A stretch of 36,905 nt of DNA, taken from Candidatus Ornithomonoglobus merdipullorum (GTDB lineage: Bacteria > Bacillota > Clostridia > UBA1381). Positions 7,848 to 35,382 of this stretch are shown in pieces. Each line of letters starts with the position of its first letter. The first letter of the stretch is position 1. The notes beneath the pieces are model-generated. The model worked only from the letters and a program-made list of their open reading frames with translations. It did no database searches and was not told where the DNA came from. A program made the translations under genes and the position numbers. The stretch covers positions 1 through 36,905 of the forward strand of contig DVNB01000069.1 in NCBI GenBank assembly GCA_018714695.1, in the 5' to 3' direction.

Positions 7848-8768
7848 ATGGATTTTTTAATAAACAAGCATCTTTTTGCGGCGTACTGCGGATTGATATC
7901 AAGCGGCTATTCGTTGACAGATCTATCCGATATTGATATAAGGGCATTGTATAACAGGATACAAAAAATCACATTTGACTCTGAAATATCAACTTACTTT
8001 TCATTTGCAAAAACAAATACAATAGAAGTAAATCCGTATTATCCGAGAGGATCGGATCTGTCTGCTGCATGCTTCTTTCTTGAAAACGATATTAACGAAT
8101 ATATGGATTTTCTGAGATTTTGCAATTCTTCGAGTGCAAATGATGAGGAATTTATCAAGTGGATCAAAAATTTAAAAAAACCGCTTAAAGCAATTGAAAA
8201 CCATGCCGAATTTGGCTCATTATTTGCAGCATATGAACAGATCATAAACAATAGATTTGCGGATATCAACAGGCAGCTGCGAAACTTTAAAAACAAAATA
8301 AAAGACTTTTACGGCTTTGATGTACAGTTTGTGTTTGTGCCAAATCTGCTGCAGTCGAAATATCTTACGGATTTTGTGTTTAAAAATAACACATTGTATA
8401 TTATCTCAAACTCATTTTCGCAGACAGCGGCAGCGCATGAATATTTTCATATCGTATTAAATGGAAAAAAGAATCTATTAGGCAAGTTGATGAAACAAAT
8501 TGATATTGATAATTTTGTCGATACTGACGCAATGATACGTTTCGGTTATATGCAGGATGAGTCGGTAAACAGTAAGATCAATGCGATAGAAGATTGCATA
8601 ATACGCGCAATGTGCGGAGTTTTAACGGAAGATACAGAAGCATATTGTAAAATGAATATAGAATGCGGATTCATAGGTGTACCTGCGATGGTAGAAAAAA
8701 TAAAAGAGACAGACCTTTCATGTTTGGATATTGACAAAATCATTTCAAATATGGCAGAAATACATTGA
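7848..8768 (+). CDS. Putative HExxH zinc metallopeptidase, solitary
   Basis: 306 residues, family not recognised. The clearest signal is HEYFH at residues 197-201 (8436-8450) in the context TAAAHEYFHIVLNG, a canonical HExxH zinc-binding helix. A downstream Glu in NAIEDCIIRAM (about residue 248) could be the third ligand. There is no signal peptide or membrane segment, so it should be cytoplasmic. The N-terminal 150 residues are helical and unfamiliar. GAGAGGA ends about 8 bases before ATG 7848; a longer frame from TTG 7827 has no ribosome binding site. Codon use is AT-rich compared with neighbours. It has no operon partner. Peptidase activity is inferred from the motif only. Confidence 0.75.
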   Translation: MDFLINKHLFAAYCGLISSGYSLTDLSDIDIRALYNRIQKITFDSEISTYFSFAKTNTIEVNPYYPRGSDLSAACFFLENDINEYMDFLRFCNSSSANDEEFIKWIKNLKKPLKAIENHAEFGSLFAAYEQIINNRFADINRQLRNFKNKIKDFYGFDVQFVFVPNLLQSKYLTDFVFKNNTLYIISNSFSQTAAAHEYFHIVLNGKKNLLGKLMKQIDIDNFVDTDAMIRFGYMQDESVNSKINAIEDCIIRAMCGVLTEDTEAYCKMNIECGFIGVPAMVEKIKETDLSCLDIDKIISNMAEIH

Positions 8769-19123: not shown

Positions 19124-19149
19124 AAATATATATGAAGGGAGTTTTAAAG

Positions 19150-21735
19150 TTGGAAGAGGTTAAAATGAAATGGCTCGATTCAAGAGTCAAAGGGGGATGT
19201 GTAACGTTTGGCGTTCCCCATGCGATGGGCGAGGTAAAAAAGGGCGAGACGTTATGTGTCACTCAGAACGGCAGTGAGATACCGTCACAGACGAAGCCTA
19301 TCGCATACTGGAATGACGGAAGCGTAAAGTGGACGTCGGTCGCAGCCGAGACGGACGGGTCGGAGATAACGGTGTCCAAGGGGACACATAATGAGCTGCC
19401 CGCCATGGCGGCAGAGGAGCGTGACGGCTCCGTTACCGTTGATAACGGACTGTTCAAGGCGGAGTTTTTTACCGGCAGCAGAACGCTTGTGAAAACGCCG
19501 GAGCTTGAGGTTGGCATACGCGCCGTAAAGTCGGTCGTAAAGTACGACGGCGACGACACGGTGAAGCGCAGCATACCGTTTTACGGTGAGGCAGACGAAT
19601 GTGTGATCGAGGACACGGGCGCGGTAAAGACGGTCGTGCGTATGAAGGGGACACATAAGGCTGCGGACGGCTCGGAGTTTCTGCAATTCATATTGAGATT
19701 TACACTGTATAAGAATTCAAACAAGCTCGATATAATGCATACGTTCATTTACGACGGAGACGCGCAGACAGATCTTATCGGCGGACTGAGCGTTGATGTT
19801 ACGCGAAAGATGAGCGGGTCTTGCATGAACAGGCGTGTAAAGCTTGCGGGCGACTATGGCATAATGCATGAGCCGCTCCAGATACTCAATGTCTGGAGAC
19901 CGAGGATAGGAACGAAGTATTACGATATGCAGATGCGCGGTGAAAACGTAGATGTTTCGGACGCGATAGACGCGAGAAACGGTCAGCCCTGCGCGGAGAT
20001 GCTCGACAATGTGACGATCTGGGACAGCTATAAGCTGTATCAGGCTACACCTGACAGCTTTATCGTTAAGAAGAGGACCGCTCCGGAGAAGTGCGCGTAT
20101 ATCGACGCCAATTTCGGCGGACGCTCAAAGGGACTCATGTACGCCGGTGATGAAAACGGCGGATTTGCAGTAGCCATGAGAAGCTTTTATCAGAAGGCGC
20201 CGTCGGCGGTAACCGCTTCCGGGCTTTCGTCAGACGCGGGAACGCTTTCGGCATGGATACATCCGACTGAGGCGGAACCGTTGGATATGCGCCATTACGA
20301 TACTATAGCGCATGACCAGACATATTACGAGGGTTATCCGTGGGTAGGCTCCGATCCTTACGGTGTTGCCGCGACCAACGAGATCTCTGTCATGGTATAT
20401 TCCGGCACGCCGTCTGACGAGAAATTGATGAATGACGCGGATGCCGTACAGCGCCCGGCGGTGGTGGTATGTGAGCCGCAGGTGTATAAGGATACCGATA
20501 TCATGGGTGTGTTCTCGCTGCCCGACAGATCAACGCCTCTCAAGGCGTGGCTTGAGGACGAGCTTGACAAAGCGGTAGATTTCTACATCAAGGAAGTGGA
20601 GCAGCGCCACTGGTACGGACTGTTTAACTATGGTGACGTGATGCACACCTATGATTACGGCAGACACTGCTGGAAATATGACATGGGCGGCTACGCATGG
20701 CAGAACACGGAGCTTGTGCCGACGCTCTGGCTGTGGTACGCGTTTTTAAGAAGCGGCCGCGGCGATATATTCGATATGGCGGAGGCTATGAGCCGTCATG
20801 CAGCCGATGTTGACGTGTATCACATAGGCGACAAGAAGGGCATAGGCAGCCGTCACAACGTTATCCACTGGGGCGACTCGTGCAAGGAGCCGAGAATAGC
20901 GATGGCGGGACATCACAGGGCGCTCTATTACATCATGGGCGGCGATCCGAGGATCGGCGATGTGTTCGACGATGTACGTGACGGCGACTTTGCGACGCTG
21001 AAGAACGATCCGCTCGGAGCGTTCTACGACAAGTCGGAGATGAAGCTGCCGACACACGCAAGGAGCGGTCCCGACTGGTCCACATACTGCTCAAACTGGT
21101 ACACAGAGTGGGAGAGACACGAGAATACAAAGTACCGTGACAAGATACAGACGGGTATAGACGATCTCAAGAAGGCGCCGATGAGGATGATCTCCGGCTC
21201 GAACTTCGAGTATGATCCGTACACCGGACATCTCGGCTATATAGGCGAGAGCGCGGCGGGCGGCGCGCATCTGGCGGTGTGCATGGGCGGACCGCAGACA
21301 TGGATGGAGCTTGCGAATTTGCTCGATGATGATGTGTTCAAGGATATGCTGATCCAGTACGGCGAGTTCTATTACCTGTCGGTCGAGGATAAGGTAAAGG
21401 CATCGAACGGGCTGCTCACCGGAAACGGTTTCGTATACCCGTACATGGCAGCCGGCATGGTAGGCTATGCGGCAAGGGAGACGAAGAACGAAAAGCTTGC
21501 GTACCAGGTATGGCAGGTGCTGATACATTCGCTCGCAGGAAAGGACAAGGACGAGGGCTTTGACAAGGAAGTGATAGAGAACTACTTCAACAACAGGGCG
21601 CTCGACGAGATGTTCTGGATAAGCACGAACTTCACGGCGCAGTGGTGCCTGAACACGATAGTGGCGCTGGAGCTGACGAAGGATTACATGAAGGATACAA
21701 AGGAAGAATATGAATGGGAGGACTGGGTCAAGTGA
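19150..21735 (+). CDS. YetA/PcRGLX-type exo-rhamnogalacturonan lyase family protein
   Basis: About 861 residues, close to B. subtilis YetA (857). The opening EVKMKWLDSRVKGG, then TFGVPHAMGEV and PIAYWNDGSVKW, match the N-terminal domain of the PcRGLX/YetA family, related to polysaccharide lyase PL26. A middle beta-rich region follows to about 430, then a helical toroid-like C-terminal domain with motifs such as TYYEGYPWVGSDPYG and RHWYGLFNYGDVMHTYDYGR. There is no signal peptide, so it acts on imported pectin (rhamnogalacturonan) fragments in the cytoplasm. The start is uncertain: TTG 19150 has AAGGGAG 8 bases upstream; ATG 19165 is the alternative; ATG 19132 has no ribosome binding site. It is monocistronic with its own terminator, and no transporter is linked. 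Lyase activity is inferred. Confidence 0.78.
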   Translation: MEEVKMKWLDSRVKGGCVTFGVPHAMGEVKKGETLCVTQNGSEIPSQTKPIAYWNDGSVKWTSVAAETDGSEITVSKGTHNELPAMAAEERDGSVTVDNGLFKAEFFTGSRTLVKTPELEVGIRAVKSVVKYDGDDTVKRSIPFYGEADECVIEDTGAVKTVVRMKGTHKAADGSEFLQFILRFTLYKNSNKLDIMHTFIYDGDAQTDLIGGLSVDVTRKMSGSCMNRRVKLAGDYGIMHEPLQILNVWRPRIGTKYYDMQMRGENVDVSDAIDARNGQPCAEMLDNVTIWDSYKLYQATPDSFIVKKRTAPEKCAYIDANFGGRSKGLMYAGDENGGFAVAMRSFYQKAPSAVTASGLSSDAGTLSAWIHPTEAEPLDMRHYDTIAHDQTYYEGYPWVGSDPYGVAATNEISVMVYSGTPSDEKLMNDADAVQRPAVVVCEPQVYKDTDIMGVFSLPDRSTPLKAWLEDELDKAVDFYIKEVEQRHWYGLFNYGDVMHTYDYGRHCWKYDMGGYAWQNTELVPTLWLWYAFLRSGRGDIFDMAEAMSRHAADVDVYHIGDKKGIGSRHNVIHWGDSCKEPRIAMAGHHRALYYIMGGDPRIGDVFDDVRDGDFATLKNDPLGAFYDKSEMKLPTHARSGPDWSTYCSNWYTEWERHENTKYRDKIQTGIDDLKKAPMRMISGSNFEYDPYTGHLGYIGESAAGGAHLAVCMGGPQTWMELANLLDDDVFKDMLIQYGEFYYLSVEDKVKASNGLLTGNGFVYPYMAAGMVGYAARETKNEKLAYQVWQVLIHSLAGKDKDEGFDKEVIENYFNNRALDEMFWISTNFTAQWCLNTIVALELTKDYMKDTKEEYEWEDWVK

Positions 21736-26392: not shown

Positions 26393-27136
26393 TCAGAGCA
26401 GGGCTTTTACAGTCTCCTCGTCAGGGTCCACGTACAAGATCCCGCGGTTGCCGTCGAGTATAGCGGATGAGCCGGGAGTGAGGCTGTCTATAAAACTGCC
26501 TGCCTGTATGATCGCGGGGACTCCCTTCGATCTTGCGAGTATCGCGGCATGAGAGGCATCCGTACCGTTTTCGACTATGAATCCCAGTATCTTGTCGCTG
26601 TCGAACCGGACTATGTCGCTCGGCGGAAGGTCACGCGCCGCGATTATGACCGGCTCGGATGAGAGTATCTCACTCAGCTGCAGTCCAAGCAGGATGCGTA
26701 TCACCCGCTCGGATACGTCGCGTATATCGAACCGCTTCGCGCATATGTATTCGCTCCCCGAGTCCTTGAAGAGCTGTATATATTTTTCGCTCGTAAGCGC
26801 CACCGCAGTCTCGGCGTTTATCATCTCGTCGGAGATTATGTTATATACTTCTTCGGTAAAACCGACGTCTTCTACCATCATTATCTGTGTAACGAAGATG
26901 CGCGCGTCAGCTTCGTTTATTTCCTTCGCAGTTTTTTTATAAAGACGTTCAAGCTCCGTCACCGCCTCGGCCCGCGCGCGTTCAAACCGCATTATCTCGT
27001 CAACCGAGGAATCTATATGGTATCTGCGCACAGGACACTCGTCGTGCTTGAAAACATACAGATTCCCGTATGCCACGCCGCCGCAGACAGGTTTTCCGTA
27101 ATATTTATCCATAATATATCCGGCATGCATATGCAC
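26393..27136 (-). CDS. Stand-alone N-terminal half of PTS Enzyme I
   Basis: About 247 residues that align only with the N-terminal half of Enzyme I (about 575 residues in full). Visible: GKPVCGGVAYGNLYVF opening, the helical HPr-binding domain (about 45-145) with KRFDIRDVSERVIRI, ARDLPPSDIV, and the phosphohistidine loop GTDASHAAILARSKGVPAI (His about residue 196). It stops right after ILYVDPDEETVKALL, a natural domain boundary; the C-terminal PEP-binding TIM barrel is absent and no remnant follows. It cannot take phosphate from PEP by itself, but the fold could exchange phosphate with HPr. The start is uncertain: GTG 27136 (GGGAGG 11 bases upstream), ATG 27130 or ATG 27112. It is monocistronic. 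Confidence 0.8.
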   Translation of the reverse strand: MHMHAGYIMDKYYGKPVCGGVAYGNLYVFKHDECPVRRYHIDSSVDEIMRFERARAEAVTELERLYKKTAKEINEADARIFVTQIMMVEDVGFTEEVYNIISDEMINAETAVALTSEKYIQLFKDSGSEYICAKRFDIRDVSERVIRILLGLQLSEILSSEPVIIAARDLPPSDIVRFDSDKILGFIVENGTDASHAAILARSKGVPAIIQAGSFIDSLTPGSSAILDGNRGILYVDPDEETVKALL

Positions 27137-27164
27137 ACCGCTCAAGACCTCCCTTCCCCTAGAA

Positions 27165-27193: not shown

Positions 27194-27222
27194 ATTATAT
27201 CAAAAAAGCGGACGGATTTCAA
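27194..27222 (-). promoter_or_regulatory. Promoter of the Enzyme I-like gene
   Basis: Minus-strand TTGAAA (27217-27222), a 17-base spacer and TATAAT (27194-27199). Confidence 0.82.
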
Positions 27223-27374
27223 TAAAAAGTGTGTAAAACCATGTATATTTATAAATTTTACACTGAATAATTAATGAAATGGAGTATTGCAAATGCACAT
27301 TGACGCAAGCTGACCGCTGCGCGGAGTGTCCGTTTATTATTCATTGTTGAGCTTCAATTGTACATTGATCCGTG

Positions 27375-29018: not shown

Positions 29019-29360
29019 GTGTATGAGATTGAATTTTACTACGACAAAAACGGCAGATCAGATATTGTTGATATGCTTGACAATTTGAAGAAAAGATCTG
29101 CAACAAGCAAAAACGACAGAATAAACAGAGAAAAAATACTCACCTATATAGGCGCGTTAGCAAAGTACGGTACGAGGATAGGGAAACCTTTTGTAAAACA
29201 TATTGATGGAGGCTTATGGGAGCTAAGGCCGCTTTCAAACAGAATATTTTTCTTTTATTGGAAGGATAATAAGTTTGTGTTATTGCACCATTTTATGAAA
29301 AAGACGCAGAAAACTCCGCCTAAGGAAATCAAGCAGAAAAGACTTTTTGGAAAGGAATGA
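29019..29360 (+). CDS. RelE/HigB-type toxin (phage Gp49-like family)
   Basis: 113 residues starting at GTG, with GGGGG about 8 bases upstream. The sequence YEIEFYYDKNGRSDIVDMLDNL, then GKPFVKHIDGGLWELRPLSNRIFFFYW and LLHHFMKKTQKTP match the HigB/Gp49-like RelE superfamily, ribosome-dependent mRNA interferases. The basic C-terminus (KEIKQKRLFGKE) is usual. It precedes the antitoxin gene by 6 bases in the toxin-first order characteristic of higBA. Activity is inferred. Confidence 0.88.
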   Translation: MYEIEFYYDKNGRSDIVDMLDNLKKRSATSKNDRINREKILTYIGALAKYGTRIGKPFVKHIDGGLWELRPLSNRIFFFYWKDNKFVLLHHFMKKTQKTPPKEIKQKRLFGKE

Positions 29361-29366
29361 TGATAA

Positions 29367-29669
29367 GTGAAACAAGTAAAGACATTTGCGGATTATATGA
29401 ATGACGATGAGCGTGTGTCCCCGGCAGAAAGAGAAAAAATAAATTTTGAAATTGACTTGATCGGGAAATTGATCGAAGCAAGAGAGCAGAAAGGATTATC
29501 ACAAAGAGAGCTTGCCGAGCTTTCCGGAGTTAAGCAGCCTGCTATAGCGAGACTTGAGAGTATGAAAACAACTCCGCAAATAGATACTCTTTTTAAAATA
29601 TTAAACCCTTTAGGCTATACGCTCTCGATCGTTCCGTTAAAATCGGATGCTATAGATAACAGAATATAA
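29367..29669 (+). CDS. XRE-family antitoxin (HigA-like)
   Basis: 100 residues, GTG start with AAGGA about 11 bases upstream. A helix-turn-helix lies at about 40-80: KGLSQRELAELS, then GVKQPAIARLES, and a closing TLFKILNPLGYTL. It is expected to neutralise the upstream toxin and bind the palindrome at 28975-29000. The two genes form a compact operon closed by the hairpin at 29671. Confidence 0.9.
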   Translation: MKQVKTFADYMNDDERVSPAEREKINFEIDLIGKLIEAREQKGLSQRELAELSGVKQPAIARLESMKTTPQIDTLFKILNPLGYTLSIVPLKSDAIDNRI

Positions 29670-29757: not shown

Positions 29758-32295
29758 TTATTTTACTATAACGAGTTCCTTCACTTCGTCCTCATAGATC
29801 CTTATGAAGAGTCTGTTGTTCTCGTCTGAATCATATGCTGTAACGTCATCGAAGTCTGCCGCTGTGATGTTGTTCTTTGACTTCGTTGTGTCTACGCTGT
29901 AGACCTTCACATCCTCGCCGATGCTGTAGTTTGCAGCGGCGCCGTCGTTTACAGATACGTTTACCGAGTCTGCGAAACGCTTTTCAACCTTTCCGTATAC
30001 GAGCTTCATATCGTTCTCGGTATCTGTCACAAACTCATCGTTCTTTGCGCTGATGTCCAGAAGAAGTCTGATGCCTGCGATGTTTCCGTCGGAATCTGTC
30101 TTGTACTGGATGATGTCGCCCTCTTCAAGCTTCGCGCCCTCGCCCTTTACAAGGACTGTGTCGTCAGCTGCATAGAGGCTTACTTCTTCGCCGTCAACAA
30201 GTGCGGTGAGAATGTCTGTCTGCTCGTCGTTTGAGTTCATACCTGTTGTGATCTTCTTAACAACTGCCGCCGGTGCGCTTGTGTTTGCCTTGAATGCTGT
30301 GTCTGTGAGCACTACAACACCTGCGGTGTAGCTCTCGCTCATGTCGTATACGAGTCCCGAATACGTCTGGTTGTTTTCGAATACGCTTGAATCAGTAACG
30401 GTTACATCGCTCGCATCGCTTACGTCGAACACGATCGTGCTGTCGGATATTCTGATGTTTCCGAACTTGCGTGTCGATGCGTTGTAAAGCTCGTCCTCAA
30501 GCTTCTTGTTGAGTGTGAAGTTGTTTATATCGGCAGTGCCTGCCTCGCTTCTGTCGTTTGCAATGTTGATCTCGGTCACCTTATCCGAGGAATTCTTCGA
30601 ATAGGTTATGAGCTGCTTTACTGCTGAGCCCTCGTTTGTGAGCGCTGTGAGCACATTTGCCGGGGTCGATGTCACGCCGTTGAGCTTCGGCTTGTCTGCA
30701 AGCGCGAGAGTTACCTCCTCGCCGCTCTTGTCAGTCGCCTTTATATATACGGTCTCACCGTCGTTGCTTCTGTATGCGTTCGTGAGATACGCGTAGCCGT
30801 CGCTCACTTTGGAGATCGTCTTTACAGCCGCGATCTTGCCAGATATATCGAGACAGAATTCAGCCGTTGTGCCTATAGACATATCCTCTGTGAAGTCGGG
30901 CGAGAGCTTGTAGAGCTTGCCGTCTATGGTGTAGCCGTCCTCGCTCTTTGCCTGGATCTTTCCTTCAAATGAGTTTCTTGTCGCATAGATCTCGCGGTAG
31001 CTCTTGTCGAGGCTTTCAGCTATCGAGAGCACGTCCCACTCCTTGAGATCCTCGGGCTCTGCCTCGCTGCTTCCGAGATACAGCTTATAGTCGTCGTTAT
31101 CAAATCTTATTACGGTCTTGTCCTTGCCGACAGCCTTGTTTACCGAAACGTAGTCGACCGTTACATTCTTGTACTCAGTTACGAAAACGATGTCGTACTT
31201 CGAGTCGCTGTCGGTGTCGAGCAGCGTCATATACGCCTGCTTGCCCTCAAGGTCTATGAGATCTGTCGAGAATTCCGCAGTTCTGTTGTTATAGATGAGC
31301 TGCGCGTCTGCGGCAATCACTGCCGTTGAAACTCTGCTCGAATCCTCATCCGCGTAATATTCTACCGCGTTCAGCGAATTCTTTGTTGTGAGTCTTGAGA
31401 AGAGATCTGAGTTGAGCTCGACCGTCTTGTTCTTGCCGCTTACCGGTATCGCAAGTATTACCTCGCTGTCGCCGCTGCGGGTCTTTTTTGCATAGCAGGT
31501 AACGTTGTAGCCGAGCAGGCTGCCGAGCTCTGCCGATGCGGGATATACTTTGTCGTCTATTCTTACACTGTCGTCGTTTACGCTCTCATAGCCGTTCAAC
31601 GCCGCAGCGCCTACTGCGGTTATCTGACCGCTGAACTTTTCCGTTTCAAGGTTGTCGCCGAGAAGTGTCTTGTCGGTCACCTCAAATACAGCGTTTGAGC
31701 CGAAGCCTGTCTGCTCCATTTTATACGTCTCGAGCGTGTTGTTTGTGAGGATCGCAACGTTTCCTCTCGAGATCGGCGCGTTTGCCGTACCTTCAACGTT
31801 CTTTATCATCTTGTTCTCGTTCGCTACCGAGATATAGCCGGAGGGGTAACCGCCGTTCTTCTTTGCCTTCGTGTCATAACCTGCGGCTCTTACCATTATA
31901 GCTACTGCCTCGCTGTAGCTGATCTCGTCGTTCGGTCTGAAGTTGCCGTCTCCGTCACCCTCTACGAGCCCGAGCGATGCCGCCACATTTATATAGCCGT
32001 TTGCCCAGTGATCCGCAGCGACGTCGTCAAAATCGTCCGAACCCTTTGCGTTGTCGGCAGCTTCCTGCATGCCCATAGCGGTTACCGCCATTTTTGTGAC
32101 CTCTGATCTTATGATCGTATCGTCGAGGCGGAACTGGCCGTTTTCGTCGCCGTTCATGATGTTGAGTGATGACAGCACCGAAACTGCCTCCTCAAATCTC
32201 GTTCCCGCCGCTTCCGATGGTACTGCCGCGAGAGCCGGTATCGAGCTTGCCGCGAAGCATCCGCCGAGTATTGATGCGATAATTCGTTTGTTCAT
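29758..32295 (-). CDS. SLH-domain surface (S-layer-type) protein
   Basis: 845 residues. Signal peptide (MNKRIIASILGGCFAASSIP, cleaved around ALAA). S-layer homology domains at about 31-75 (VSVLSSLNIMNGDENGQFRL) and 88-140 (FDDVAADHWANGYINVAA, then EISYSEAVAIMVRAAGY), with a degenerate third to about 190. SLH domains bind pyruvylated secondary wall polymers. The remaining 650 residues are beta-rich, Thr/Ser/Asp-rich and unassigned. GGAGGT lies 5 bases before the ATG, after a leader of about 77 bases. It is monocistronic and divergent from a second SLH gene. Confidence 0.9.
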   Translation of the reverse strand: MNKRIIASILGGCFAASSIPALAAVPSEAAGTRFEEAVSVLSSLNIMNGDENGQFRLDDTIIRSEVTKMAVTAMGMQEAADNAKGSDDFDDVAADHWANGYINVAASLGLVEGDGDGNFRPNDEISYSEAVAIMVRAAGYDTKAKKNGGYPSGYISVANENKMIKNVEGTANAPISRGNVAILTNNTLETYKMEQTGFGSNAVFEVTDKTLLGDNLETEKFSGQITAVGAAALNGYESVNDDSVRIDDKVYPASAELGSLLGYNVTCYAKKTRSGDSEVILAIPVSGKNKTVELNSDLFSRLTTKNSLNAVEYYADEDSSRVSTAVIAADAQLIYNNRTAEFSTDLIDLEGKQAYMTLLDTDSDSKYDIVFVTEYKNVTVDYVSVNKAVGKDKTVIRFDNDDYKLYLGSSEAEPEDLKEWDVLSIAESLDKSYREIYATRNSFEGKIQAKSEDGYTIDGKLYKLSPDFTEDMSIGTTAEFCLDISGKIAAVKTISKVSDGYAYLTNAYRSNDGETVYIKATDKSGEEVTLALADKPKLNGVTSTPANVLTALTNEGSAVKQLITYSKNSSDKVTEINIANDRSEAGTADINNFTLNKKLEDELYNASTRKFGNIRISDSTIVFDVSDASDVTVTDSSVFENNQTYSGLVYDMSESYTAGVVVLTDTAFKANTSAPAAVVKKITTGMNSNDEQTDILTALVDGEEVSLYAADDTVLVKGEGAKLEEGDIIQYKTDSDGNIAGIRLLLDISAKNDEFVTDTENDMKLVYGKVEKRFADSVNVSVNDGAAANYSIGEDVKVYSVDTTKSKNNITAADFDDVTAYDSDENNRLFIRIYEDEVKELVIVK

Positions 32296-32670: not shown

Positions 32671-35382
32671 ATGAGGAAATTACTAACATTGATCACAGCG
32701 ACATCGATCGCGGCATCTGCCGCATCGGGCATCACCGTGTCCGCATTCGATCTCGGACGAGTGAGCTTCTTTGATACGCTGCCGATAAGTGCGTCGGCAT
32801 CACCAAGCCCATCGGTATCGCCGAGCCCATCGGCATTGCCGAGTCCGTCCGCAGCGGCAGATCCGTCGCAGCCGCCGGCACAGTCGGCATCACCTGCGGC
32901 ATCGGAGACTGCTTCGCCGACACCGGCAGTTTCGGAAAGTCCGACGCCGGAAGCGAGTGCAGCGCCAAGCCTGTCGCCGAGTCCGTCGCCAAGTCCGACA
33001 CCTTCGGCAGGCTCGACCGTAACGGGTATTACGTTCAATAAAAAAGAGCTTGAGCTAAGCGTTGGAGAAAGCTTTGAGCTTAATGCGGTGTTTGAGCCGG
33101 AAACAGCGGTACCGGGAAAGCTCACTTGGTTTACGAGCGATCCGTGCGTAACGGTGAATAACGGCGTAATAACTGCGGCTGCGAGCGGAAGTGCCGTTAT
33201 AATGGCGGTAGAGGAGACGAGCGGCCTTGCCGCAAGCTGCTATGTTACCGTAAAAGAAGAATCGGGACTTCTCGATCTCAGCATAACCGAGGGCGTAAAG
33301 CAAGTCACGGTTGAAAAGAACGGAGTGACAAGCGAGGTTATCGCAGGCTCGAATAGGCTCGAGGCGGGCGAATACATCGTGAAGGCAGTGAGCGAGGAAG
33401 GCTATACGCTTGAGCCGTACAGCGAGACTCTCAGCATCAAGGCGGGAGAAACGGCATCGCTGTCGGTTTCGGCATCAAAGACGTCGTGCATCATAACACT
33501 TCCGCAGGTCACGGGATGCACGATCACACCGACAGAGGGGAGCGTTTCGCCTGTCGCGGCGGGAGGCAGCTACAGCTTTACCGTTACTACGGGAGCAAGC
33601 TTTAATACCGAGAATATGGTGATCAAGGCGAACGGAGAACCCATAGAGGCGGTAAACGGTGTTTATACCATAACCGATATAAGAGAAGACATAACGATCT
33701 CGATAGACGGTGTCGAGGTAATGTCATGGGATACGAGCCTGAAGAGCGTAAAGGTCCTGGGCATAGATGCGGTGCTTGAAAATGACGTGTATTCGGTAAG
33801 CGTTCCGTACGGCGCCGCGATAACCACGGGCGATATAGCAGTAGAAACGACTGACGAAAACGCAAACTATACCGTTACCACCGAGGACGGGAAATTTACT
33901 ATAACCGTGACCGCGGAGGACGGAACGAAAAAGGCGTATACGCTCAATGTGACGGAAAAGGAAAAGACGGCTGTAGATGACGCGGTCCTTTCGATAAGAA
34001 AGCTCAAATTCGATGATGCTGCACAGAGTTCGGATGGTTCGTACGCGAGTCAGGATGAGGTCAGGGCTGACGTTGAGGAAAAGATAAAGGATGCGGCGGG
34101 AAGCGGTATGACCGTGACGGTCGTAAATGGAGACAAGACAGAGCCGGTACGCGGCACGCTTTCAAGTCCGGACGGCACAGACGGAGCATACGAGTATAAT
34201 GTCACTATTTCGGACGGCACCGAAACACGTGAGATCACGGTATCGGTAGTGATAAACGCGTATGATTACTCGATCTCGTCAAGCGATATAACAGCGACAT
34301 CCACGACGATAACGATCAAGAATCTCAGCAGCTCCACGACCGCGGCGCTGTATAACGAAAACGGAAGCATCGTGAGAAGATGGACCTCGCCGGAGGGCGG
34401 AAGGGTGACTTTCAGGAACCTTGAGCCGGGATATATGTATGTGGTAAAGCTCAGAGACGAGAATTCGACGGAAGTGCCGTCAAGCGGTACTTCGGTAAGG
34501 ACACAAGGCTCATCCTCGAGCAACAAGAGCACAAGATATTATACAGTTACATTTGACGAGGGAAGCCACGGCGAGATCGTATCCGGCAAGACAAAGCAGT
34601 CGGTAAGGCTCGCGCGTGCGCCTGAGTTCCCGGAGGTAGAGGCAGACGAGGGATATATATTCAAGGGCTGGTCGAGCAACGGAGTGCTCGTTGAGGATCC
34701 GGATAAGGTGCAGATAAGATCGACGACCGAGTTTACGGCTATTTATGAGGAGTCTTCGGGATCGTCCTACGGAACGTCGATAAACAGACCGTCATCTGAC
34801 GACAATATACAGGATATTCCGCAGCAGCCGACGGTAACGAGCTATTATGATGTTCTTCCGTCAGACTGGTTCTATTCGAGCGTTATGAGCGTGAGCCAGA
34901 AGGGTTATATGAACGGTACGGGACCGAATATGTTCCAGCCGGATCTGACGCTCACAAGAGCGATGCTCGTTACGATACTTTACAGATATGCCGGCGAGCC
35001 GGAGGCTGAGGGCGTGAGCTTCAACGATGTGCCGCTGAACACTTGGTACACCGACGCTGTAACATGGGCAGCCGATGCCGCGATCGTAAACGGTATCGCA
35101 CCGGGAATATTCGATCCGAATTCGAATATAACACGCGAGCAGCTGGCAACGATAATGTACAGATATGCCGAGGCGTTCGGCTACGATACGTCTGCAGCGG
35201 GAAGCATTATAGCTTTCAGGGATTCGGCATACATTTCCGACTGGGCGCAGACTGCGCTTATCTGGACCATCGGCGCCGGAATAATAGGAGGCAGGGACGA
35301 CAATACGCTCGACCCGGGCGGCTTCGCGACAAGAGCGGAGGCAGCCGCGATCATTGAAAGATTTGAAAACTATATAGGATAA
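32671..35382 (+). CDS. Multidomain surface protein with C-terminal SLH domains
   Basis: 903 residues. Order: signal peptide (1-25, ending TVSA); a Ser/Pro/Ala linker with SPSPS units (about 40-115); a BIG2-like Ig domain (about 118-195, GITFNKKELELSVGESFEL); further beta domains; a cadherin-like beta-sandwich (about 350-430, LKSVKVLGIDAVLENDVYSV); a fibronectin-like stretch (about 530-610); an InlB-type repeat (about 625-690, EGYIFKGWSSNG); and three SLH domains (about 725-900: DWFYSSVMSVSQKGYMNGTG, TWYTDAVTWAADAAIVNGI, DWAQTALIWTIGAGIIGG). SLH domains bind wall polymer, leaving the Ig-like arm outward; an adhesive or scaffolding role is inferred. AAGGAGGAG precedes the ATG. Confidence 0.9.
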   Translation: MRKLLTLITATSIAASAASGITVSAFDLGRVSFFDTLPISASASPSPSVSPSPSALPSPSAAADPSQPPAQSASPAASETASPTPAVSESPTPEASAAPSLSPSPSPSPTPSAGSTVTGITFNKKELELSVGESFELNAVFEPETAVPGKLTWFTSDPCVTVNNGVITAAASGSAVIMAVEETSGLAASCYVTVKEESGLLDLSITEGVKQVTVEKNGVTSEVIAGSNRLEAGEYIVKAVSEEGYTLEPYSETLSIKAGETASLSVSASKTSCIITLPQVTGCTITPTEGSVSPVAAGGSYSFTVTTGASFNTENMVIKANGEPIEAVNGVYTITDIREDITISIDGVEVMSWDTSLKSVKVLGIDAVLENDVYSVSVPYGAAITTGDIAVETTDENANYTVTTEDGKFTITVTAEDGTKKAYTLNVTEKEKTAVDDAVLSIRKLKFDDAAQSSDGSYASQDEVRADVEEKIKDAAGSGMTVTVVNGDKTEPVRGTLSSPDGTDGAYEYNVTISDGTETREITVSVVINAYDYSISSSDITATSTTITIKNLSSSTTAALYNENGSIVRRWTSPEGGRVTFRNLEPGYMYVVKLRDENSTEVPSSGTSVRTQGSSSSNKSTRYYTVTFDEGSHGEIVSGKTKQSVRLARAPEFPEVEADEGYIFKGWSSNGVLVEDPDKVQIRSTTEFTAIYEESSGSSYGTSINRPSSDDNIQDIPQQPTVTSYYDVLPSDWFYSSVMSVSQKGYMNGTGPNMFQPDLTLTRAMLVTILYRYAGEPEAEGVSFNDVPLNTWYTDAVTWAADAAIVNGIAPGIFDPNSNITREQLATIMYRYAEAFGYDTSAAGSIIAFRDSAYISDWAQTALIWTIGAGIIGGRDDNTLDPGGFATRAEAAAIIERFENYIG

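Follow-up and report, generated by a model that had tools for sequence, protein, structure and literature searches.

Enzyme I (EI) of the PTS is normally one two-domain enzyme, and separation of its halves is usually a laboratory procedure. The window analyzed here, a whole contig of 36,905 nucleotides from Candidatus Ornithomonoglobus merdipullorum, contains a gene for the N-terminal part of EI (EIN) with nothing of the remainder attached. The question raised by this locus is whether such a gene is the remnant of a truncated EI or a protein maintained in its own right and, if the latter, with which partner it exchanges phosphate.

An intact gene for the N-terminal half of enzyme I

The minus-strand frame 26393-27145, which opens with TTG, codes for no more of EI than its two N-terminal domains, namely PEP-utilisers_N and the mobile phosphohistidine domain. 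GTG 27136 is most likely the start of the gene, because it lies in frame 11 nt past GGAGG and the ATG start of the orthologue in a congener (G008) occupies the equivalent aligned position. The features of the gene are as follows:

26393..27136, minus strand: stand-alone EIN protein, 247 aa from GTG 27136 or 239 aa from ATG 27112
27148..27153, minus strand: Shine-Dalgarno-like GGGAGG, read directly from the sequence
26744..27097, minus strand: PEP-utilisers_N, the HPr-binding helical part (Pfam; residues 6-123 from ATG 27112)
26441..26656, minus strand: PEP-utilizers mobile domain, the phosphohistidine domain (Pfam; residues 153-224)
26549..26551, minus strand: phosphoacceptor His codon; the residue is number 188 counted from ATG 27112 and corresponds to E. 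coli EI His189

Pfam detected PEP-utilisers_N (E 3.7e-24) and the PEP-utilizers mobile domain (E 1.1e-17) and no other family. Thus, PF05524 and PF00391 are present, together with the phosphoacceptor His in the mobile domain, and PF02896, the C-terminal PEP-binding barrel, is absent. The EI family model TIGR01417 aligned at positions 3-237 of 565, which means that the protein ends at the domain border. The open reading frame and both kinds of model match therefore uphold the preliminary description of an intact, independent EIN gene ending before the barrel. The best solved relatives by sequence were the EIN chains of EI (5woy, 3eza and 1zym), and an AlphaFold2 model built from 35 related rows (pLDDT 89.9, pTM 0.74) matched E. 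coli EIN 1zym with a TM score of 0.86 over 234 columns. The protein is accordingly predicted by the model to fold as EIN, with the fold complete.

Among known systems, PTS EI (PtsI, TIGR01417) shares with the window protein its N-terminal half, the fold and the phosphoacceptor His, whereas the window protein lacks the PEP-binding barrel, is encoded by a separate gene, forms a clade of its own and shows substitutions close to the HPr face and to the His. DhaM (NF008478), the phosphoryl donor of dihydroxyacetone kinase, also has an EIN-like part and no barrel, and the window protein aligned at DhaM 260-470 of 473. DhaM has an HPr domain and one of EIIA(Man) type fused ahead of EIN; in the window protein no such domain precedes it, only PF05524 and PF00391 having been found.

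The host genome is a 2.65 Mb draft in 124 contigs (86.5% complete), the window being contig 91. A full-length EI and HPr, which the preliminary description had suggested looking for, were both found: the EI (C66) has 544 aa and adjoins a frame read as a glucose-type EII, and three genes are HPr-like. PEP-utilizers_C had two matches genome-wide, one in the full-length EI and the other in an 899-aa frame (C57), and none was found on the window's contig. With a full-length EI elsewhere and no separate barrel gene, the EIN gene is neither the sole EI nor one half of a split EI. Downstream of it, on the same strand, lie yebC, lon and engB, and a tmcAL-like gene (HIGH_NTase1) is divergent upstream; the names engB and tmcAL are our own assignments.

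Occurrence of stand-alone EIN genes

Short EIN genes of the same length were identified in 5 of 16 genomes of the genus, that is, the window's own (G000), G008, G009, G011 and G012. Their open frames are intact and span 245-266 aa, and identity to the window protein (alignment A1) was 77%, 72%, 60% and 52% for G008, G009, G011 and G012, respectively. The same-length homologues sought after the preliminary description thus exist in five species. The neighbourhood is the same in G008, and the neighbours differ in G009, G011 and G012. No short EIN was detected in the other 11 genomes of the genus, some of which are incomplete; G013 and G002 (98% complete) are among them. In a tree of EIs, the five carriers and G013 formed one group (99/92), and G013 has no short EIN though it retains the yebC-lon-engB order.

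The family search covered 70 genomes and the order search 95. Four more genomes in two other genera (G021, G025, G026 and G027) contain a second kind of stand-alone EIN, here called type B (L070-L073). Like the window type, these proteins stand alone (229-258 aa) and retain the phosphoacceptor His; they differ in forming a separate clade, in retaining H76 and in their linkage to CpXC (PF14353), the gene being immediately 3' of a CpXC gene in all four. The 230-aa frame of G026 is intact; its family-search match overran the gene ends, hence the stops counted there. Nine of the 15 short frames seen in the order search were counted as stand-alone EIN. Those of G050, G060, G066 and G067 were dropped as they run into contig ends, and two more were dropped since a barrel-type frame follows them, past a stretch of N in G030 and past a frame break in G046. 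Complete stand-alone EIN therefore occurs in 9 of the 95 order genomes, and all nine carriers also possess a full-length EI.

CpXC is present in 63 of the 70 family genomes and is not linked to the EIN gene in the window's genome, and we rejected it as a general EIN partner on account of this wide presence. That type B adjoins CpXC in four genomes, spread over two genera, is no more than a lead; titles and abstract openings among the literature matches listed gave no functional account of CpXC.

A search of the class, which covered 391 genomes, gave matches at E <= 1e-30 in 152, and among the matches listed (down to 9.2e-40) the shortest frame, that of the window aside, was 418 aa. It should be noted that this sample included one known carrier only, G000, so that absence elsewhere is not implied. 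Three of the 21 matching phage records contained no phage-borne stand-alone EIN, their frames being full-length (522-552 aa). A natural stand-alone EIN was not described in titles or abstract openings among the literature matches listed, and the available part of PMC2405797 makes no mention of one.

Ancestry of the two types

The tree of 70 EIN rows comprised the 9 stand-alone proteins and 61 full-length-type rows with loci in hand, which are not every EI match; G050 is among the latter and was excluded from the 60-EI set used for conservation below, and G030 is outside the tree. The five window-type proteins formed one clade (100/100). The four type B proteins fell on one side of a branch supported at 86/91 on the drawn tree, with long branches flagged, and the three of genus g6 grouped at 100/100; in the group table, type B received 100/100 as a label against the other labelled rows. 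An AU test rejected a single clade of both stand-alone types (p = 0.012) and a tree joining the window type to its genus group's EIs (p = 1.4e-5), the groups having been named in both cases after the tree was seen. The latter result rules out a recent duplicate of the own-genus EI. On the basis of this tree, type B is apparently an independent second lineage of stand-alone EIN.

The nearest full-length row to the window type was the second EI of G049 (EIa, L186 5747-7462), with weak support (92/62); it is 49% identical to the window protein and has M118S, M123I, R126K (3/5) and the loss of T168 in common with the window type. It differs in having a barrel, which aligned over its whole length with the barrel of the EI in the window's genome. 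This tree placement does not show it to be the closest relative.

Promoter and conserved upstream block

The preliminary description had also claimed a consensus promoter for the gene, and such a site was indeed found:

27194..27222, minus strand: promoter-like TTGAAA-17-TATAAT, its -10 box preceded by TG; 11 of 12 positions agree with the consensus
27235..27270, minus strand: conserved block upstream, in which G000, G008 and G009 share 27 of 36 bases
27240-27258, minus strand: core of the block, AAATTTATAAATATACATG, one match in the host genome at <=2 mismatches

Sites of such quality numbered 10 in the scanned 2.3 kb, compared with 2.9 in shuffles. TTGAAA-17-TATAAT precedes the EIN gene in three of the five carriers (G000 and two orthologues, G008 and G009), with the hexamers identical at 12 of 12 bases. 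The block is placed 12-48 bases upstream of this site, and the intervening stretches agree among the three genomes at 1/12 and 3/17 bases. Its core begins exactly 36 bases ahead of TTGAAA in all three, despite the different upstream gene of G009, and has exactly one exact match in each of these genomes. This core is absent ahead of the EIN gene in G011 and G012. A regulon of the block was considered and rejected: in a search of six genomes at <=2 mismatches, the exact sites were only those before the EIN gene. Further sites with two mismatches occurred once in G009 and once in G012, and the backward control of the core gave one match, in G012.

Selection on the EIN gene

Between G000 and G008, the EIN gene showed pN of 0.126 against pS of 0.896. 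Its dN was 0.138, about 2.8 times that of EI (0.050), and dN of yebC was 0.026; dS was saturated, which left most dN/dS ratios uncomputable. Judged from these substitutions, the EIN gene is under purifying selection, looser than that on EI.

These data bear on the possibility that the gene is a decaying truncated copy of ptsI. Its faster evolution compared with EI and the failure to find the short form in 11 of the 16 genus genomes, including G013 and G002, would agree with decay. On the other hand, intact same-length frames persist in five species down to 52% identity, pN is well under pS, the promoter is conserved, the contig has no barrel match and the protein does not descend from the own-genus EI. 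We consider decay highly improbable, and a pseudogene is contradicted by the conserved orthologues, the low pN relative to pS and the conserved promoter. The outcome that would have spoken for one, homologues all full length together with relaxed selection, was looked for and not found, though EIN evolves faster than EI; the proposal that the gene is maintained and not decayed has held.

The phosphoacceptor His and the HPr-docking face

The phosphoacceptor His is retained in all nine stand-alone proteins and all 60 EIs. Around it and around the docking helix, all five window-type proteins carry G66N, H76Q, T168I and T190A (E. coli numbers), as well as I75T and M123I. In EIs, G66 is conserved in 60/60, H76 in 58/60, T168 in 58/60 and T190 in 56/60; T168 is also lost in three of the four type B proteins. 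According to the available parts of two papers, Thr168 interacts with His189 in EI (PMC8295985, PMC3724859).

The loss of T168 also argues against a split EI, in which the protein would use in trans the barrel of a full-length EI. The full-length EI in every carrier would fit such an arrangement; the search of the window's genome for a separate barrel gene, which found none, rules out a split EI as such, and we regard the whole idea as very unlikely.

For the HPr interface we used the 28 residues of the modelled complex given in the available part of PMC3724859, mapped to E. coli numbers. This set includes I75 and M123 and excludes the other four positions, of which G66 and H76 are beside interface residues and T168 and T190 are at the His. 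In the window type, invariant columns made up 11/28 of the interface and 83/198 of the rest (p = 0.84), and 7/13 of the His loop compared with 87/213 elsewhere (p = 0.40). In contrast, the full-length EIs of the same five carriers were invariant at 24/28 interface and 124/198 other columns (p = 0.019), and at 12/13 columns of the His loop compared with 136/213 (p = 0.038). The extra conservation at HPr contacts and His loop that the preliminary description had proposed examining is thus absent from the window type, unlike EIs. Its suggestion that the protein buffers HPr phosphate is only partly supported: the invariant His speaks for it, whereas an interface and a His loop lacking the extra conservation of EIs speak against it.

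Positions conserved in EIs were retained in the window type at 12/20 in the interface and 48/67 elsewhere (p = 0.41). Counted over the EI-conserved docking and His-loop positions, the window type has 13-16 changes and EIs a median of 1, and four divergent full-length EIs carry 13-15. These alignments show looser constraint together with some fixed replacements in the window type, which do not by themselves prove a loss of HPr binding. Each of the five carriers has three HPr-like matches, as have the non-carriers G002, G004, G013 and G014; a dedicated HPr gained with the EIN gene was therefore rejected, the HPr complement being unchanged.

Possible function and partners

An EI without the barrel cannot be charged directly by PEP, and the window protein, having no barrel, should not be charged in this way. 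Isolated EIN was phosphorylated by catalytic EI, HPr and PEP in the work described in the available part of PMC8295985, which indicates that the usual phosphorylation chain is able to charge EIN on its own. The account to which we give roughly even chances is that of a dedicated, selected stand-alone EIN which takes phosphate from phospho-HPr or another partner and acts as a regulator or phosphate acceptor. The gene has an old EI paralogue, not the present host EI, as its ancestor. The protein's His would receive phosphate, reversibly, from phospho-HPr or from some other phospho-His protein, and its phosphorylation or binding state would report or tune the energy state of the PTS, the protein being a regulator or acceptor of phosphate and no catalyst of sugar uptake. 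Some residues flanking the docking helix and the His have been replaced and then fixed, and the choice of partner may have shifted as a result. Phosphorylation, partner and regulatory role are all inferred here; exchange with HPr and tuning of the PTS state is the simplest account, and HPr exchange, a new partner or both are possible for this protein.

A changed partner is a serious rival to the HPr-exchange account. The docking face would then bind something else in place of HPr, such as a regulator or the host's HPr-like protein that lacks the active-site His, and the phosphoacceptor His would be phosphorylated by that partner or donate to it. The six replacements invariant in all five window-type proteins and the lost excess conservation of the HPr interface agree with this, and the position of type B beside CpXC in 4/4 genomes hints at partners outside the PTS. 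However, no co-occurring partner gene was found, the HPr complement is unchanged, CpXC is widespread in the family and unlinked in the window's genome, and the neighbours vary among the five carriers. As changes are not significantly more frequent in the interface than elsewhere and four divergent full-length EIs are equally changed, the odds of a changed partner are slightly lowered, and we hold this reading to be conceivable though on balance improbable. Quite tentatively, one may go further and imagine a PEP-blind phosphohistidine relay or sensor that arose at least twice in one Clostridia family, with its face rebuilt for a partner other than canonical HPr, and that conveys the PTS energy state to a non-transport process.

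The protein could also act merely as a competitor or buffer, binding HPr without useful phosphotransfer and lowering PTS flux. HPr binds EI through its EIN half, and the window protein retains that fold complete, but the HPr face shows no special conservation, and a His that is not needed would not be expected to be invariant in nine of nine proteins (a weak argument, since many other columns are invariant too). We think this explanation unlikely.

If the preferred account of a dedicated, selected EIN is right, the PTS field would gain a native histidine-phosphate acceptor from a natural gene that encodes EIN alone and coexists with a full EI, and such a protein may read HPr without feeding it. 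The second lineage, next to CpXC genes, points to a process worth attention.

Other genes of the window and host genome

Among the HPr-like genes of the host, one (C109, about 7877-8104; L031 5878-6105) encodes a protein of ~75 aa that keeps the Ser46 region (DAKSIMGIF) and is without the His15 region. It sits directly 5' of frames that we read as spoIIGA-, sigE- and sigG-like, the names being our own reading. A match to HPr shortened at the N terminus in this way is present in 15 of the 16 genus genomes, the window's own included. Another HPr gene (C50; L030 1073-1330) has Lys at the expected regulatory Ser46 and adjoins frames read as a fructose-type PTS operon. A further HPr gene of the host lies on C2.

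In the window itself, a Gp49-like (PF05973) gene followed by an HTH_3 gene at 29019-29669 (plus strand) is likely a toxin-antitoxin pair, which we take to be of the HigB/HigA type. S-layer-homology (SLH) proteins are encoded by two large genes in divergent orientation, at 29758-32295 (minus strand) and 32671-35382 (plus strand), and relatives of the latter sit at different places in several congeners. Finally, the plus-strand gene at 19132-21735 encodes an 867-aa protein with three PcRGLX-like domains (RIFT barrel, beta sandwich and alpha/alpha toroid).
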